20,723 nt of DNA from Pseudomonadota bacterium (lineage in GTDB: Bacteria; Bdellovibrionota_C; UBA2361; OMIW01), in the NCBI GenBank assembly GCA_900299205.1, contig OMIW01000055.1, positions 1 to 20,723 on the forward strand, in the 5' to 3' direction. Shown piece by piece: positions 10,186 to 20,723 of this stretch. Under the pieces are notes generated by a model. It did not search any database. It had not been told where the DNA came from and saw only the letters and a program-made list of their open reading frames with translations. The translations under genes were made by a program, and so were the position numbers. Each line of letters opens with the position of its first letter. Position 1 is the first letter of the stretch.

Positions 10186-10806
10186 TCACCGCCGCACCTC
10201 GCACCCCTCCCGTACCCCACACCCGGCGCACTTACGCGGGTGGGGGGTTGCGACACACGGCCCACCCTCAAGAGCTCTTCTCATCTCAAGCAGCACCCCA
10301 TCGAGCCATTCCCGTCTCTCGGAGGAGTTCTCTATCCTCCACCGTTTCGCCGCAGGACCAAGAATCAGGTAACCGTGTGATGGTCGTACGCCTACCTGCT
10401 CCTCTATCAGCCGGCAATACACGAGCAGCTGGGCAATGTCTTTATCGGTGGGGCGCTTGCCGAAAGCTTTTCTCTCAATCGGAATAAGAAGACCCCCCTC
10501 CTCAACGAGGGCATCAGGCCGCCCCGCTAGTCCCAACCGATGAGAGTAAAACTCTCGAGCTGGTACGAAAGACCCCCCATCAACCGCCTTTACAACCATG
10601 CGTCGCGTTATTCCGGTATCACGACGCAACCGCTTCATGCCTCCGAGAATACCGTCGACCACTATCGCAGCAATGACCAAAATGGTGACCAAGAGGGCGA
10701 AATTGCCGTCCACTTCGAGAAGCTGGCGTACCACCTCGGGAGCACCTTCCACCCCCACTCGCCTGACCGCACTCACCCAATAATCCTCCACCGATACACG
10801 AGGCAC
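10186..10806 (-). CDS. Cas4/RecB-like PD-(D/E)XK nuclease, C-terminal part, with membrane segment
   Basis: 206 residues; catalytic part of a Cas4-like nuclease. RLGLAGRPDALVEEGG carries the metal ligand Asp98, IPIERKAF carries E111-x-K113, and DIAQLLVYCRLIEEQ carries the Q126...Y130 motif typical of Cas4/RecB nucleases. The C-terminus has Cys193, Cys196 and Cys202 (KCAGCGVREGC), three of the four ligands of the Cas4 4Fe-4S cluster. A membrane segment, FALLVTILVIAAIVV (36-50), precedes the domain. The fourth Cys and another membrane segment are in the overlapping upstream frame (10773-11066). The frame would start at GTG 10806, which has no Shine-Dalgarno, so independent translation is poorly supported. 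No cas1, cas2 or repeat array is near, so this is a stand-alone relative. DNA here looks more GC-rich than the neighbours. Confidence 0.75.
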   Translation of the reverse strand: MPRVSVEDYWVSAVRRVGVEGAPEVVRQLLEVDGNFALLVTILVIAAIVVDGILGGMKRLRRDTGITRRMVVKAVDGGSFVPAREFYSHRLGLAGRPDALVEEGGLLIPIERKAFGKRPTDKDIAQLLVYCRLIEEQVGVRPSHGYLILGPAAKRWRIENSSERREWLDGVLLEMRRALEGGPCVATPHPRKCAGCGVREGCEVRR

Positions 10807-11066
10807 GCCGTCACACTAAGTGCGAACAGCACTCGAAGCCCGAGCCGCACCGCTTCCAAGACATCAACGGCCTCCCCCCATCGCTCGTGCTCGGCCTCTC
10901 CCCGCCCGGCTCTTTCATCACCAAGGTGCGACGTTGACGGACCAGGACGAGGCCCTCGACCGCGAGACAATCTCCAAGCCTCGGGACAGAACACAAACTT
11001 CCCTACCTCTCCTGCCGCGAGAATCTCAACCTTTTTACCCTTTTCATCGACAGAAAGGCCCTCCAC
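10773..11066 (-). CDS. Cas4-like nuclease, N-terminal part (first iron-sulphur Cys and membrane segment)
   Basis: 97 residues from GTG 11066, preceded by a purine-rich GAGGGGG about 6 bases away. AAGEVGKFVFCPEAWRLSRG matches the Cas4 N-terminus (ISxxxxYxxCPRxxxL), with Cys27 as first cluster ligand. A basic, Gly-rich stretch with AEHERWGEAV follows; related membrane-bound members have a similar H..H/WG helix. Then comes a membrane segment, LGLRVLFALSVTACLVYRW (75-93). The frame stops at 10773-10775, before any nuclease motif. The rest of the protein continues in the -1 frame, which overlaps by 34 bases. So the two frames together make one Cas4-like protein with two membrane segments between the first Cys and the nuclease core. 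Whether this is a broken gene, a programmed shift or a sequence error is open. Confidence 0.7.
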   Translation of the reverse strand: MEGLSVDEKGKKVEILAAGEVGKFVFCPEAWRLSRGRGPRPGPSTSHLGDERAGRGEAEHERWGEAVDVLEAVRLGLRVLFALSVTACLVYRWRIIG

Positions 11067-11222
11067 TCTTCCCCCTCAAAAACATCCTTTATTTTTTAAC
11101 CGGCAGATGATTGCACACATTTAAAGCACACGGAACTCTCGGCCCTCTGGTACCGATTAAAAACGGACGAGATGCGCATCGCCGGGGCAATTTGAGGAGG
11201 AACGATTAGTTTTAAGGCGTAA

Positions 11223-11747
11223 TTACCTTCGCATACGACTCATAAAGCCCCGAACCACGGCGCTCCGGTGCGCAATCCAACGACCTACACCAGGCATGAC
11301 ATGTTTCGCGCGCGTCGGACCTTGGTTGTTTTCCGATCCGCCGATGAATGACGCCGGCCGAAGGTCCGGCGCGACTGCCAAATGCAAGGGACCATTTCTC
11401 GCTTCCGGAACGTGCGCAACCTCAAGCTGATACTGAGCCTCGATAGCCTGCCCGTGAGTCAATCGCCAAAATGCATACCGTCCGCACGCCGAAACGAAAG
11501 TACACCTCAATGCGTAACATTCATCCTCTTGGCAGGCTACGACTGATAGTTCGAAATCGTGCTCCTTCTCGAGGAGGAAACTAGACATGAAGATTTTTGT
11601 CCACCCTCGGCGCGCCCGGTGAGCACACAGCTCATCGGAGTACCGCCCCTCTAACATGATGAGCTCCGCATCAAAAAAAACCTCCCCTCGGAACTCCACC
11701 CCCAGCATCGGGGGGGTAATCGGCACCTGAAGCTCTGACTTCTGCAT
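11223..11747 (-). CDS. Unknown soluble protein
   Basis: 174 residues from ATG, not recognised. The central part looks strand-rich: FRGEVFFDAELIMLEGRY, KEHDFELSVVACQED and ALRCTFVSACGRYAFWRL, followed by AIEAQYQLEV. The order of short strands with a hydrophobic core could suit a PilZ-like beta barrel, but the PilZ c-di-GMP motifs (RxxxR, D/NxSxxG) are not seen. The last 25 residues are basic (RWIAHRSAVVRGFMSRMRR) and could touch membrane or nucleic acid. There is no signal peptide. It lies 156 bases upstream of the Cas4-like gene on the same strand, so co-transcription is possible. Coding status rests on length, even composition and no competing frame. Confidence 0.6.
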   Translation of the reverse strand: MQKSELQVPITPPMLGVEFRGEVFFDAELIMLEGRYSDELCAHRARRGWTKIFMSSFLLEKEHDFELSVVACQEDECYALRCTFVSACGRYAFWRLTHGQAIEAQYQLEVAHVPEARNGPLHLAVAPDLRPASFIGGSENNQGPTRAKHVMPGVGRWIAHRSAVVRGFMSRMRR

Positions 11748-12272
11748 GAAACCACCGTCCTTTCACAACACCTCGGCAACCATGAGGAATCAGCCTGAAA
11801 ACCCTCCCCTCAGACGACATGAGCCGGCTCCTCCGACCTCCCCCTTTCCTACCAGTGTATCGGCAACAGCGTCTCCAACCTTAAGTAAACAAACTACGTT
11901 CTTATTCAGCGAGTGCGTACTACCGAGAGGCTGGTTGACTGATGACGTTTTTTCCCGTGTAATCGGTCGAAAGCCTCAGATCCGCGTTGAGTCCCCTCTC
12001 TGAAGGGGTCAGCCAGCATTTTTAGTTAAAATGGCTCGGCGGAGTTTCCACTAACAGCACCGGCTCAACGCGGATGTGCTCGATTACAGCAGGATCGGGG
12101 GGAGGTTCAGACAGAACTGAAAATTGGAACGGTTATTACGGTAAGAGATGCCCCTTCATCTTCGTCTGGGACTCTCCTTTCATAAACCGCACATGTTCTC
12201 CAGTTCGCACAATTTACAATTTTTGGGGCAAGGTCCTTGACGCCTCATCTTCACGGAGCAGCAGTCATATTT
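11748..12272. other. 525-base gap between divergent genes
   Basis: No convincing gene. It must hold the promoters of the unknown gene at 11747 (-) and the Gly/His/Arg-rich gene at 12273 (+). The main content is the inverted-repeat structure at 11980-12075 (own entry). A small hairpin, GTTC/GAAC, lies near 12105. Frames that are open here have low-complexity Pro/Ser/Thr translations and no ribosome binding site. Confidence 0.5.
11980..12075 (+). ncRNA. Candidate structured RNA (multi-stem, closed by a 12-14 bp helix)
   Basis: ATCCGCGTTGAG at 11980-11991 is the exact reverse complement of CTCAACGCGGAT at 12064-12075. On the + strand the helix extends inward by a U-G and a C-G pair (11992-11993 with 12062-12063), while on the - strand the U-G pair would be a C-A mismatch, so + is favoured. 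Between the arms lie hairpin CCCCT/AGGGG (11993-11997 and 12004-12008; the C at 11993 can pair in only one of the two helices), and hairpin AGCC...ATTTT/AAAAT...GGCT (12011-12036, with a 3-base bulge). A weak third helix may form at 12041-12055. The layout is that of a junction RNA such as a riboswitch or small RNA. It lies about 200 bases upstream of the gene at 12273. I could not match it to a known class. Confidence 0.35.
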
Positions 12273-12944
12273 ATGGAAAAGCGATTTAATAAGAGGCGAG
12301 GCCCGACGGGCGAATCAGGACAAGGATACCGACAAGGGGGGGGGGGACACCATGGAGGGGGTCATCACCGTGGAAATAGAGGCTTCCGCCGACGGCCTGG
12401 CTTTGATAGTGGCAATCAGCGAGAGCGGATTGCCGTTGAAAGCGGGAGCCTTGTCGTCATCGATCAATTCATGCTCGCCAACCCTGAGTTCATCGAGGCC
12501 TATGCTGAAATTGTTGATGAACCGATAGCGAAGAAAGTCGCCCTCGTAGAGCGATTCGGCGGTGTCGTCGTGCAGGTTGCCCCTGGCACTTATCGGATTG
12601 ACCGAGACCCGTACCGATTCTCAATCGTCGTTCACCCAGAGGATGTCTCCCCTTCTGACCTTTCGCTCGATGCGGGAGAATCTGCAGGCACACTCTTTGT
12701 CAATACGCGCTGCCTTGCGATGATTGACCGCGAGCTGCTTGACGACAGTGCCCTCCTCGATAAGTATCAGCAGCTTTGGTTCGGCGGTAAGGACAAAGCA
12801 TGTCGCGATCTTCTCAGAGATAATGGAGGTGCGGTGCGGTACGGGTTCTCCCGATTCTCCGATGACCTGACCGTCAAGCTGGACCGCCAGGAAAATCTGC
12901 TCGTCCTTGCCCCGGAGAGTCTCGGCGAGCACACCCCTCACTAA
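12273..12944 (+). CDS. Unknown protein with Gly/His/Arg-rich N-terminus and a G11 tract
   Basis: 223 residues from ATG 12273; a TTG at 12237 in frame is possible, but neither has a clear Shine-Dalgarno. Residues 1-50 are disordered and rich in Gly, His and Arg (GGGGHHGGGHHRGNRGFRRR), as in RGG-type RNA-binding tails. Residues 52-215 form a folded domain I do not recognise: VESGSLVVIDQFMLANPEF, VALVERFGGVVVQVAPGTYR, SAGTLFVNTRCLAMIDREL, YQQLWFGGKDKACRDLLRDN and VRYGFSRFSDDLTVKL. No signal peptide or membrane segment. A run of 11 G (12336-12346) inside the disordered part encodes the Gly block; a change of one G would shift the frame before the folded domain. It precedes ilvD by 170 bases on the same strand. 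RNA binding is inferred from composition only. Confidence 0.7.
   Translation: MEKRFNKRRGPTGESGQGYRQGGGGHHGGGHHRGNRGFRRRPGFDSGNQRERIAVESGSLVVIDQFMLANPEFIEAYAEIVDEPIAKKVALVERFGGVVVQVAPGTYRIDRDPYRFSIVVHPEDVSPSDLSLDAGESAGTLFVNTRCLAMIDRELLDDSALLDKYQQLWFGGKDKACRDLLRDNGGAVRYGFSRFSDDLTVKLDRQENLLVLAPESLGEHTPH
12336..12346 (+). repeat. Poly-G tract (G11) in coding sequence
   Basis: Eleven consecutive G at 12336-12346, reading GGG GGG GGG GGA as four Gly codons. Tracts of this length slip in replication and are used as on/off switches in several bacteria. It is the longest homopolymer in the window. Confidence 0.9.
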
Positions 12945-17011: not shown

Positions 17012-17539
17012 TCACTTTCCCCTGCTCACCTCCTCGACTAACGTGTACGCCCACCAAAAACCGGGAGATTGATCGAATGTTGCATTCCAAAACCAAGCTG
17101 AGACATCGGTGTATTCTCCTCCGAACTGATCAAAGATTCGCTCACAAACCCGGAGGCGCATTTTCCTTTTAGCCGCCTCAAAGCACCCCCACCGATGCCC
17201 CTCCCTATCAACTCGGATCGGTTTAAAGGTGACCGAGAAGCCAGATCCCCGAAAACAATCGACCGCCGGATGTAACTTACGAGTCGGTCGGTTCAGAAGT
17301 CTCAGAATTAGTTGGTCGGAACCCGCTTGATATTTGCGGATCTCCCCCGGAAAATCCTGCGCAAAAACCTTGTCCTCCTCGCTGAGTGGCAGGGGCGATA
17401 GCCGTTTATCCATGAAATACTCAGGCCATTCGGCCGCGATCTGTCGTTGGCCTGATAGTCTCGTGTCATCAGGTGCCTGTAGCAACGGAACGACCGCGGT
17501 AAGAGTGGCCAGCACGATGTACACAAGGTTATGCCACAT
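17012..17539 (-). CDS. EpsI-like exosortase-associated protein
   Basis: 175 residues from ATG 17539. A start at 17581 would overlap the exosortase by 53 bases. ATG 17539 has AGGAG 8 bases upstream (17548-17552, inside the end of the exosortase gene) and starts directly with a membrane or signal segment, MWHNLVYIVLATLTAVVPLL, so I prefer it. The mature part has a weak EpsI-like outline: RKLHPAVDCFRGSGFSV (88-103), where EpsI proteins have hxPexCyxxxGW, then GHRWGCFEA and FDQSPGFWWAYTLVEE near the end. EpsI-type proteins occur next to or fused to exosortases and are thought to help sorting. The coding regions overlap by 11 bases, so translation is coupled. The protein is shorter than typical EpsI (about 200-230). 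Confidence 0.65.
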   Translation of the reverse strand: MWHNLVYIVLATLTAVVPLLQAPDDTRLSGQRQIAAEWPEYFMDKRLSPLPLSEEDKVFAQDFPGEIRKYQAGSDQLILRLLNRPTRKLHPAVDCFRGSGFSVTFKPIRVDREGHRWGCFEAAKRKMRLRVCERIFDQFGGEYTDVSAWFWNATFDQSPGFWWAYTLVEEVSRGK

Positions 17540-18362
17540 GACCGAGTCTCCTATTGCGAGACGTGATACATACCGCGGCACCAGTGAAGCAAACCACCCC
17601 TATCCCGGCATGTGTCCACGATGGTAGTGGCACCATCCCAGACTCTTTAAAAAAGAGTAGGGTAACCCTCACAACATTTCCAACGAATATCGCCCGAAGG
17701 GCAAACGCCGTAGCGATGAGGGTTTGGCGGGCGGAAAACTTCATCAGCGACGCAAGAAGAAAATTAATAAACATACCCACCCATAGCATCTTGATGCCAC
17801 TGCACGGCGCGTCCACTATCACGATGGATCCATCCCAATTAAGAACAGTTCCCTCAGCGGCAACGTTAAAACCACCACCATATCGCAGAAGAATTGCGAC
17901 GATATACGAGAGAACCAGTCGAAGCGGATAGCCGAGATAAAATTCCAGAGAAGAGACTAAAGGAAGAGACAACAGAAGAAGAGCGTAAATCGCTGTTCCT
18001 CCTTTAATAGTTCGAAGATGAAGTCCTGTAAGTGCGGAGATGACGAGAACCCCCTTCACGAGGAAGGGGGTCCACTGATAGGTAGTAATGTATAAGACAG
18101 AAAAAAGAAGGAAACCGAGAGATGGAAGATGACATCGGATTCTACCGATAGGAGCAAACGGAGGCACTATATCCGAGACGATATTCGCAGCTTGCCTCTT
18201 TTGACCGGTCCTACCCTCTTCTTTCAATCGCATTACGATGATCATCACGGAGCAGAGCAGGGCAAAAATACCCCACGGCTCATCAGAGCCATCAAGCATT
18301 CTGTCTCCGTACCAGCGCCATATTGGCCAAAAGCTGAGGAGTTGAATCAATACCACCATCAC
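17529..18362 (-). CDS. Exosortase (PEP-CTERM-sorting transpeptidase-like membrane protease)
   Basis: 277 residues with about eight membrane segments. The catalytic triad of the exosortase/archaeosortase family is visible: Cys187 in DAPCSGIKMLWVG, Arg232 in VGNVVRVTLLFF (Arg223 before it is also conserved-looking) and His251 in WTHAGIGVVCF. The N-terminal RMLDGSDEPWGIFALLCSVM fits the family block before the first long helix. Exosortases cut PEP-CTERM tails at the inner membrane and pass the protein to the cell surface or matrix. The likely substrate is the VIT-VWA protein encoded just upstream, 125 bases away, which ends in a PEP-CTERM signal. ATG 18362 starts a double ATG ATG; no strong Shine-Dalgarno is obvious. 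No glycan-synthesis genes typical of large Xrt clusters adjoin. Confidence 0.87.
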   Translation of the reverse strand: MMVVLIQLLSFWPIWRWYGDRMLDGSDEPWGIFALLCSVMIIVMRLKEEGRTGQKRQAANIVSDIVPPFAPIGRIRCHLPSLGFLLFSVLYITTYQWTPFLVKGVLVISALTGLHLRTIKGGTAIYALLLLSLPLVSSLEFYLGYPLRLVLSYIVAILLRYGGGFNVAAEGTVLNWDGSIVIVDAPCSGIKMLWVGMFINFLLASLMKFSARQTLIATAFALRAIFVGNVVRVTLLFFKESGMVPLPSWTHAGIGVVCFTGAAVCITSRNRRLGHVA

Positions 18363-18487: not shown

Positions 18488-20509
18488 CTACCGCAGTTCG
18501 CCCCCGATAAATCGAGACCTCATTCCTAGAGTCACAGGTACTAAGGTCATTGCAACCAGCAACAAAGCCCACGTTTCTGGCTCGGGCGAAGTTGAAATTT
18601 CCCCACCCAAGGAAGCTTCTGAAACTCCCTCAGGCAAAGGGAGGGGTTGTGTTATTGTTTGCAGAACCTCACTCGCCTGGTTACGGGCAATGCGATCGAC
18701 AGCGATGAATGAGGTGAAGTCTGACAGCAGATTGTAACTAAGCCCCAAGTCGATGATTTCCTTTTTTCTCGCATCAGTCGCATACAGTTTGTCGTAATCA
18801 CCGAGATCTCTCATTCGACGGCGGGCCCAAAGGTACTTTATGGCCTCATTACTCTTTAGGGGATGAGCATCGGTGACAGGAAGCCACTTCTCGTAACGGC
18901 CCTTACCAGTCGACCCGGTTAACCGAATAGCCCCTTGCCTCTTTCCTCGCCATTTCCCAAATACAGCAATCGGTCTATTCGACAATACATCGGGTATACT
19001 CTGAGGAATTACGTCATAAGCATCAAATCCGTCAAAATGAATCTTCGCCTGAGTGAGGAGGGGAGAAGTTACATATGACTGAAAACGACTACTCACCTTG
19101 GCCGATTCCTCTTTGGTGGTAACCACGAAAGGCTCTCCCAATCCGATATGAGCGAGTCCCTCGATCAAGTACCGGTTGACAGAGCTCCCTATCCCGAATG
19201 CGAACACATTTCCCTTGTCGAGATTCTTGCTCACGATATCAAAAGCTTCGGTTTCAACATCAACAAAGCCGTCCGTGACAATTACGATACTTCTTGACCT
19301 ACCCTCCGGAAGGGCCATCTCGTAAGTCTTCTTAAGCGCCGGTAAAAGATTGGTTCCTCCACCCCCATTGACAGCCTCAACAAAACGGACACCTCGGTCG
19401 ATGTTTTCATCAGTGGCGGGCAGCGGCACGGCGGAGAGCAGATCGCTCCCTCCTGCGAATGTCAGAATATTGAAGGTATCAGTCGATCGAAGATTCCCAA
19501 CCAGATTCTTAATCAAACTCTTGGTGACCTCGATCGGAAAGCCCATCATTGATCCCGATACGTCGACAACGAAGACAAAATCGCGACCAGGAATTTCCTC
19601 CTGCTTGGGCCGGTATGGCGGCTCCAGCAGGGCCAAAAAGAATTTTTCTCCATCTCCCTCATGAAGAAGCAGGCCCGTCTGGAGTGCCTCTCCAGCAAGT
19701 CGATATTTTAAGATAAAATCCCTATTGCTATTACTCGCACCGGCCCGACTGAGCCCAACTCGGGCGCTGGTCGCACTTTCAAAATCAACTCGCACATCGT
19801 GCGATATCGACGAAATATCTCTTATCGGCATCCCGCCTTCAATTCTGACCTTTATATCAAAATCGCTCTGCGAATCCTCTCCCTCATTTAGATAGGGGTT
19901 TTTTGTCCAACTCTCAGAGCGAGCATCCCCGACCTTGCCACGGGCATATCGAGGTCCTACAACGGTAGGAACTACGAACTCATACATTCGTTCCGTTGGC
20001 ATAAGCATCTCGGTGTAGCTGAGAGTTACCTTTATCTCATCTCCCGGGAGGATATTTGCAACATTCATCTGAAAAACATTCGGTCGACGTTGCGCCAGAA
20101 GACTTGCCGACTTGCCTACCTGTTTTGCCAGAACGTATTCAGCCCGCGCATCGCTCTTTTCTTTAACCTTCGCGACGATCTCACGGTCTCCGAGGGTCAT
20201 CGTTAGCCCGTGAACGGCGACCGAAGTCGAGGCGGGAAATACATAGACCGCTTCAATCGGGCCTTTTCCCTGATTGCGATAAATCTGCGTGACAGTGACT
20301 TGAGCAATCACTCCCGCAATCGTCGCATCGACCTTGGTCGACTTGAGGGGTAAGTCATCAGTTGCACCACCCTCCCCATACACTTCAAACCGCGGAGCCT
20401 CGGACCGTCCCCTCCCATCGAAATAGTCGGCAAATGCTTGTCGGTGGAAGATTGAGGCAAAAATGCCGATCATCCACGCAATGATTCGTAAGATAGGAAA
20501 TACTTTCAT
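18488..20509 (-). CDS. VIT-VWA domain surface protein with C-terminal PEP-CTERM sorting signal
   Basis: 673 residues from ATG 20509, with AGGTGA 7 bases upstream. An in-frame start at 20650 would put 47 polar residues before the signal peptide, so I reject it. The signal peptide is MKVFPILRIIAWMIGIFASI...AFA. Residues about 45-170 form a VIT domain (inter-alpha-trypsin type): VTQIYRNQGKGPIEAVYVFP, LAQRRPNVFQMNVANILPGD. Residues about 308-485 form a VWA domain with an intact metal site: DVSGSM (316-321), GGGGTN (Thr386) and TDG (Asp413). The tail PEPETWALLLVAMTLVPVTL (642-661), followed by Arg664 and Arg666, has the PEP motif, hydrophobic helix and basic end of PEP-CTERM substrates. The exosortase gene directly downstream probably sorts it. 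VIT-VWA proteins bind proteins or matrix; the ligand is unknown. LSYNLLSDFTSFIAVDR before the tail is the usual end of the VIT-VWA core. Confidence 0.92.
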   Translation of the reverse strand: MKVFPILRIIAWMIGIFASIFHRQAFADYFDGRGRSEAPRFEVYGEGGATDDLPLKSTKVDATIAGVIAQVTVTQIYRNQGKGPIEAVYVFPASTSVAVHGLTMTLGDREIVAKVKEKSDARAEYVLAKQVGKSASLLAQRRPNVFQMNVANILPGDEIKVTLSYTEMLMPTERMYEFVVPTVVGPRYARGKVGDARSESWTKNPYLNEGEDSQSDFDIKVRIEGGMPIRDISSISHDVRVDFESATSARVGLSRAGASNSNRDFILKYRLAGEALQTGLLLHEGDGEKFFLALLEPPYRPKQEEIPGRDFVFVVDVSGSMMGFPIEVTKSLIKNLVGNLRSTDTFNILTFAGGSDLLSAVPLPATDENIDRGVRFVEAVNGGGGTNLLPALKKTYEMALPEGRSRSIVIVTDGFVDVETEAFDIVSKNLDKGNVFAFGIGSSVNRYLIEGLAHIGLGEPFVVTTKEESAKVSSRFQSYVTSPLLTQAKIHFDGFDAYDVIPQSIPDVLSNRPIAVFGKWRGKRQGAIRLTGSTGKGRYEKWLPVTDAHPLKSNEAIKYLWARRRMRDLGDYDKLYATDARKKEIIDLGLSYNLLSDFTSFIAVDRIARNQASEVLQTITQPLPLPEGVSEASLGGEISTSPEPETWALLLVAMTLVPVTLGMRSRFIGGELR

Positions 20510-20723
20510 ATATCTGTCACCTCGATTTTTTTGTAGTTGGCGCTCGGCACCTCGTCTCAATCTATGCTCGAGAATTATGAAGTATGCTTGTGAGGCTGCG
20601 GTGTTCTCTCCATGAAATCGAGGTGAAATCTTCACATCTGACGAACTCAATCCGACGATATCTCTTCACCCCCGAGGACACTCACCCTCGCGGGTTCAAA
20701 GAACCGCCCCGAAGGAGACCGGA

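Follow-up and report, generated by a model that had tools for sequence, protein, structure and literature searches.

The analysed stretch of DNA (the window, 20,723 nt) carries on its minus strand two overlapping open reading frames at 10186-11066, as had been noted in a preliminary description made from the sequence alone; we refer to the upstream frame as gene N and to the downstream frame as gene C, and list their coordinates and associated features in Table 1. The minus-strand sequence at the N/C join is TGGAGGATTATTGGGTGAGTGCGG, in which gene N ends with ATT ATT GGG TGA and gene C, in the -1 frame, opens with GTG AGT GCG. The preliminary description had given the two frames a 34-base overlap and had seen no ribosome binding site for the downstream one. 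That overlap is obtained when the open reading frame of gene C is extended to its earliest in-frame GTG (10186-10806), and because this codon was taken as the start, the binding site was overlooked. More likely, gene C starts with the GTG at 10776; this reduces the overlap to the GTGA shared by the stop and start codons, and a GGAGG Shine-Dalgarno sequence precedes that GTG with an 8-nt spacer. With gene C starting there, the N/C junction is that of ordinary translational coupling.

Table 1. Features of the gene N/gene C locus and its flanks in the window.
Feature	Position	Strand	Remarks
Gene N	10773..11066	-	97 aa; GTG start, TGA stop; putative N-terminal Cas4 segment, then TM1
Gene C	10186..10776	-	196 aa; GTG start; TM2, then nuclease core
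GTGA, gene N stop/gene C start	10773..10776	-	four-base overlap; read from sequence
Shine-Dalgarno GGAGG of gene C	10785..10789	-	within the 3' end of gene N; 8-nt spacer to the GTG
GAGGGGG before the gene N GTG	11071..11077	-	purine-rich, Shine-Dalgarno-like; read from sequence
TM1	10797..10853	-	gene N residues about 72-90; hydropathy
TM2	10645..10701	-	gene C residues about 26-44; hydropathy; then a strongly positive KRLRR segment, presumably cytoplasmic
Upstream co-directional neighbour	11223..11747	-	174 aa; no Pfam, NCBIfam or PADLOC match
Divergent neighbour	12237..12944	+	235 aa; Gly/Arg-rich N-terminus; no significant family match

The motif residues of a Cas4/RecB-type nuclease were found to be distributed over the two genes. 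As the preliminary description had it, the first cluster cysteine and one hydrophobic segment are encoded by gene N, and the second hydrophobic segment, the D/ExK/QxxxY residues and the other three cluster cysteines by gene C; the motif-I His, a catalytic-site residue which that description did not mention, is likewise located in the upstream frame. In the alignments, including one of 63 rows, the conserved residues of gene N are C27 (Cys1), W31, G56 and H60 (the motif-I His), and the aligned core residues of gene C are D88, E101-x-K103 and Q116-x3-Y120, with Cys2-4 at C183, C186 and C192. Over N plus C the set of RecB motifs (His, D, ExK and QxxxY) is complete, and the four cluster cysteines, one in N and three in C, are invariant in 63/63 rows. 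Cys1, His, D, E, K, Q and Cys2-4 do not vary among the 25 rows from the window's order or among the 25 rows from other lineages, and the Y of QxxxY is present in 25/25 and 24/25 rows, respectively; in the split genomes, Cys1 and His lie in N and the remaining motif residues in C. The earlier observation that all active-site and cluster residues are kept is confirmed.

Profile searches returned the RecB/Cas4 similarity that had been anticipated for the locus. Gene C passes the Pfam model PF01930 (Cas4) with 33.1 bits at a cut-off of 22.7, scores 62.3 bits against TIGR00372 (cas4), slightly below the cut-off of 65, and 63.3 bits against the PADLOC Cas4 model, and its profile matches a small set of membrane-less (canonical) Cas4 proteins with an E value of 1.9e-16. 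Gene N has no family match in Pfam, NCBIfam or PADLOC. Its profile aligns with the canonical Cas4 N-terminus around the first Cys at an E value of 9.7e-5 and a probability of 58%, a moderate result when taken alone; gene N also aligns with the N-terminal part of fused homologues, and in a profile search against the PDB the N region of these fused proteins places Cys on Cys and the motif-I His region on GQHLHKK of the Cas4 8d3l. Mainly by way of the fused homologues, gene N may be read as the N-terminal segment of a Cas4.

Two 19-residue stretches above a hydropathy of 1.6 were found in 61/63 homologue rows, and five membrane-less canonical Cas4 controls reached at most 1.35. The net charge after TM2 is +5 in the window pair, with a median of +3 in the 63 rows, which under the positive-inside rule would give the nuclease core a cytoplasmic location. 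The N/C break falls in the TM1-TM2 loop, which is expected on the outer face of the membrane. The earlier proposal of a membrane-anchored Cas4/RecB-type nuclease outside CRISPR loci is supported.

Structure predictions were made on fused or linked chains of relatives of the window pair. The AlphaFold2 model of a fused homologue (L042; pLDDT 88.1, pTM 0.84) gave Foldseek matches to Dna2, Cas4, AdnA, AddB and Exo5, and its top VIA-align match was the Cas4 of the 7mi5 Cas4/Cas1 fusion (Z 17.8, 185 aligned residues, rmsd 3.3); this alignment covers model residues 7-280 and therefore includes the N part. A natural same-frame split pair (L043), read through two stops, was modelled with pLDDT 83.0 and pTM 0.70, and matched 7mi4 with Z 16.9, 187 aligned residues and rmsd 3.3. 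Both the fused homologue and the linked split pair are predicted to adopt a complete Cas4 fold.

The distribution of the two genes was determined in the genomes of the window's phylum. With the single window protein as query of the genome contigs no relative was obtained, and relatives were recovered with the alignment as query; their records are labelled, for example, Deltaproteobacteria, Oligoflexia, Bdellovibrionales or Dadabacteria. A gene C homologue is present in 40/45 genomes of the phylum and in 19/20 of the good-quality ones, and a profile search located gene N in each of these 40 genomes and in 0/5 of those without C. The two parts are split between TM1 and TM2 in 17 of these genomes, joined in a single ORF in 22, and cut by contig ends in one (G043). 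Within the phylum, the nuclease is nearly universal, single-copy and mostly vertically inherited. One genome, whose main copy is fused, carries in addition a second, divergent split copy (L093; G031:C56:19070-19800). At another locus (L059; G019:C425), gene C is apparently frameshifted in the TM2/core region, either a real break or a read error, and this break within gene C contrasts with the conserved N/C split.

Further split pairs were recovered from a domain-wide sample (G103, G374, G354, G141, G149 and G285). In the phylum of G103, with 201 genomes sampled, a hand count gave at least 53 genomes in which C is matched strongly (E no higher than 4e-21), at least 38 of those 53 have an N match in a separate ORF among the matches listed, and no uninterrupted full-length fused ORF was found among the matches listed. 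Reading 20 loci in this phylum revealed N and C about 150-760 nt apart in G392, G459, G563 and G443, with other ORFs between them in the first three and a short repeat-like stretch in G443; in G416 and G531, N and C are on different contigs. The intervening ORF at two of these loci (L146 of G392 and L152 of G563) has, by eye, an L,D-transpeptidase-like C-terminus. Judged from these sequences, the two-gene form is a conserved pair in several bacterial phyla.

This recurrence bears directly on whether the split is an artefact. One gene might have been broken by a recent frameshift, or by an error of sequencing or assembly, as the draft genome consists of 206 contigs, fused single-ORF relatives occur within the same order, and the window pair forms a long branch. 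However, 16 other genomes of the phylum are broken at the same place with differing frame relations, lineages outside the phylum are also split, a start codon with a Shine-Dalgarno sequence stands exactly at the gene N stop, N and C can be unlinked, and all catalytic and cluster residues are conserved; we consider an error or recent break extremely improbable, and the possibility of a read error considered in the preliminary description is not upheld.

The junctions of 36 split pairs were then scored. An exact four-base overlap occurs in 17/36 pairs and an N/C spacing within -11 to +20 in 28/36, the junction of G015 being scored from a distant ATG with its likely start a GTG at +12. A Shine-Dalgarno match of at least 4 bases precedes gene C in 11/36 pairs, compared with 10% of random 13-mers. 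The frame relation is +2 (i.e. -1) in 25 pairs, +1 in 8 and 0 in 3, and the in-frame cases have stops between the two parts. Programmed ribosomal frameshifting, which would yield one fused protein from two frames, could be invoked for the window, where the frames overlap with gene C in the -1 frame, and the fused homologues indicate that a joined product is viable. Yet, in place of the fixed frame relation characteristic of such a mechanism, all three relations were found, the in-frame pairs are separated by stops, some pairs are distant or on different contigs, and gene C of the window has its own start and Shine-Dalgarno sequence, which leaves programmed frameshifting very unlikely for this locus. 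Because three frame relations and unlinked copies coexist, programmed frameshifting and read errors are both excluded as the general cause, and frameshift or decay was rejected along with read error on the recurrent split, the varied frames and the unlinked N and C. The preliminary view of a single gene split across frames thus gives way, given the Shine-Dalgarno sequence at the GTGA, the recurrence of the split in other families and phyla in all three frame relations and the occasional lack of linkage. On this sequence evidence, N and C are best regarded as two genuine genes and not as a product of frameshift or decay.

When the split and fused states were mapped on a tree of 39 proteins, joined or fused, 6 changes were required, at least 4 of which are forced by well-supported branches. 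In a rooted tree, a second and quick one with many inner forks open, 24/24 outgroup rows, which had been picked for having both parts, are split, and the second copy of G031 is split too. Since all outside rows are split, fusion looks derived; most simply, the ancestral state of the family would be two genes, with fusion occurring later several times. The window pair sits on a long branch in the trees, so that constraint may be relaxed in its lineage.

The sequences and models together point to two real, co-occurring genes, to a split at the topological joint and to conservation of the composite residues, and we consider that the two translationally coupled genes probably encode the halves of one Cas4-type nuclease. 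In the arrangement proposed, N would contribute TM1 and, at its cytoplasmic end, Cys1 and the motif-I helix with its His, C would contribute TM2 and, likewise in the cytoplasm, the PD-(D/E)XK core with Cys2-4, and the halves could pair through their TM helices and the cytoplasmic domain, the break being in the outer loop. The 4Fe-4S cluster (1+3 Cys), if bound, would be a composite of N and C, as would the metal site (His plus D/E/K, with QxxxY), and since both sites would be composite, neither protein is expected to be active alone. The heterodimer, cluster binding, nuclease activity and topology are what we infer from this layout of residues and segments.

Informative for such a composite site is a sister clade within the same class, represented by 13 rows (L090, L092, L097, L100 and others). 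Its four Cys are invariant, the His of gene N is replaced by Arg in 12/13 rows, and in gene C the E is mostly D, the K is lost in 5 rows and the Q is mostly lost; this clade probably has weak or no classical nuclease activity. That residues of N and of C are altered together is what is expected of one composite site. It also bears on a reading in which N and C are not assembled, C being the enzyme alone and N a regulator or an independent membrane protein, to which the D/ExK/QxxxY core and three Cys of gene C, its recognition as a Cas4 by itself, and the lack of a family match for gene N in the libraries used would lend weight. We hold this reading to be unlikely, for exactly these two parts have been fused repeatedly and in the same order, their co-occurrence within the phylum is perfect, gene N has the Cas4 Cys1 and motif-I His at aligned positions, and in the sister clade the His of N and the E/K/Q of C are lost in a coordinated way. 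Returning to the two paired halves, the family as a whole probably represents a widespread class of Cas4 nucleases embedded in the membrane and encoded ancestrally by two genes, whose cluster and catalytic metal site would be completed only by pairing. Several fusions would have followed later, and the sister clade would have given up the nuclease residues while keeping the cluster.

The neighbourhood of the pair was inspected for indications of its role. Counting the window, 21 genomes of the phylum have the upstream co-directional gene beside the nuclease and 20 have the divergent gene there; both are conserved neighbours across many families, only within the order. Outside the phylum the neighbours are others, in several genomes a site-2-protease-like or NAD-kinase-like ORF by eye, and no nuclease neighbour common across phyla was found. 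Elsewhere in the window, 17529-18362 (minus strand) encodes by eye an exosortase-like membrane protein, near which 18488-20650 (minus strand) encodes a VIT/VWA-type protein with a PEP-CTERM-like end signal, likewise by eye.

Competence genes had been named beforehand as possible conserved neighbours, and a competence (DNA-uptake) nuclease at the ComEC channel would fit the membrane tethering. Directly upstream of the split pair in G354 (L134) lie comEC- and comEA-like ORFs, and in G011 a ComEC gene adjoins the nuclease, but adjacency was confined to these two genomes. In the other genomes of the phylum ComEC is located elsewhere, the window's genome has no ComEC match despite its nuclease pair, and the ComEC genes listed for the G103 phylum are not near the nuclease. 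From the position of ComEC in the 45 + 201 genomes, a competence link is not general, and we regard a function at the ComEC channel as improbable.

No cas genes are among the window ORFs, and the pair has none of the adjacent cas1/cas2 that mark a CRISPR-associated Cas4; with two genes and two TM segments it is also distinct from a canonical soluble single-chain Cas4. The pair is not a CRISPR adaptation part. The earlier statement that no CRISPR genes are near is accurate for the window; elsewhere in this genome, however, the 7.2 kb contig C93 (G000, L001) carries a Cas4-Cas1 fusion ORF of 590 aa, and an ORF beside it resembles by eye the C-terminal portion of a type V (Cas12-like) effector. 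The genome thus seems to have its own CRISPR system in addition to the membrane Cas4.

The near-universal, single-copy and mostly vertical presence of the nuclease favours a housekeeping role over a mobile defence system. A Cas4-like nuclease of Synechococcus was reported to reduce the transfer or maintenance of a plasmid (PMC10653904), which hints at an action of stand-alone Cas4 proteins on DNA that enters the cell. With low confidence, the pair may be suggested to act as a vertically inherited housekeeping exonuclease, tethered to the inner membrane and either trimming DNA ends during repair or degrading DNA that turns up at the membrane. That the enzyme is a membrane-tethered DNA exonuclease of two subunits is likely; the process, end processing or DNA clearance at the membrane, is a guess.

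The pair defines a lineage-wide, non-CRISPR form of Cas4, for which membrane tethering and two putatively obligate halves provide a handle. It explains why no family model covers gene N (about 80-115 aa) and why annotation may present gene C as a Cas4 truncated at its N-terminus. A composite cluster and active site would make activity dependent on pairing and suggests control by assembly or location. Splits of this sort in metagenome genomes should not be dismissed as frameshift errors.

Among known systems, the RecB-family 4Fe-4S nucleases AddB, AdnA, Dna2 and Exo5 have one Cys far upstream and three C-terminal ones around the PD-(D/E)XK core. The pair shares with them this 1+3 Cys layout and the fold matches of the models, whereas in the pair the long stretch inserted between Cys1/motif I and the core forms a membrane hairpin that is usually divided over two genes, and a helicase domain is absent. 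The closest solved folds (Z 16-18) are those of CRISPR Cas4 (type I-C 8d3l; Cas4/Cas1 fusions 7mi4 and 7mi5), with which all motifs align, the N-terminal Cys helix included; CRISPR Cas4, however, is a single soluble chain or a Cas1 fusion working with Cas1-Cas2, and the window pair has no cas genes nearby. ACE1, an Argonaute-associated Cas4 family protein (9iab, 9iac), is similar in having a stand-alone Cas4-family fold outside CRISPR, but its solved structure is that of a single polypeptide, its name refers to an association with Argonaute, and no Argonaute gene was identified in the window. Solo-Cas4 (COG1468; PMC5704561) resembles the pair in its Cas4 fold, four cluster Cys, His/D/ExK/QxxxY motifs, non-CRISPR loci and largely vertical inheritance; it occurs in many Chloroflexi (Hudaiberdiev et al. 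2017, PMC5704561), and the role of Cas4 outside CRISPR was described there as an open question. The main text of that study makes no mention of transmembrane, split or frameshift, and in the open-access literature searched we found no published description of a split or membrane-bound Cas4, a prior description being possible elsewhere. In contrast to solo-Cas4, the window pair consists of two polypeptides and has two additional membrane helices, placed after motif I and ahead of the nuclease core. By fold and motifs the pair belongs to the Cas4 family, and in its two-gene membrane architecture it appears to be new.
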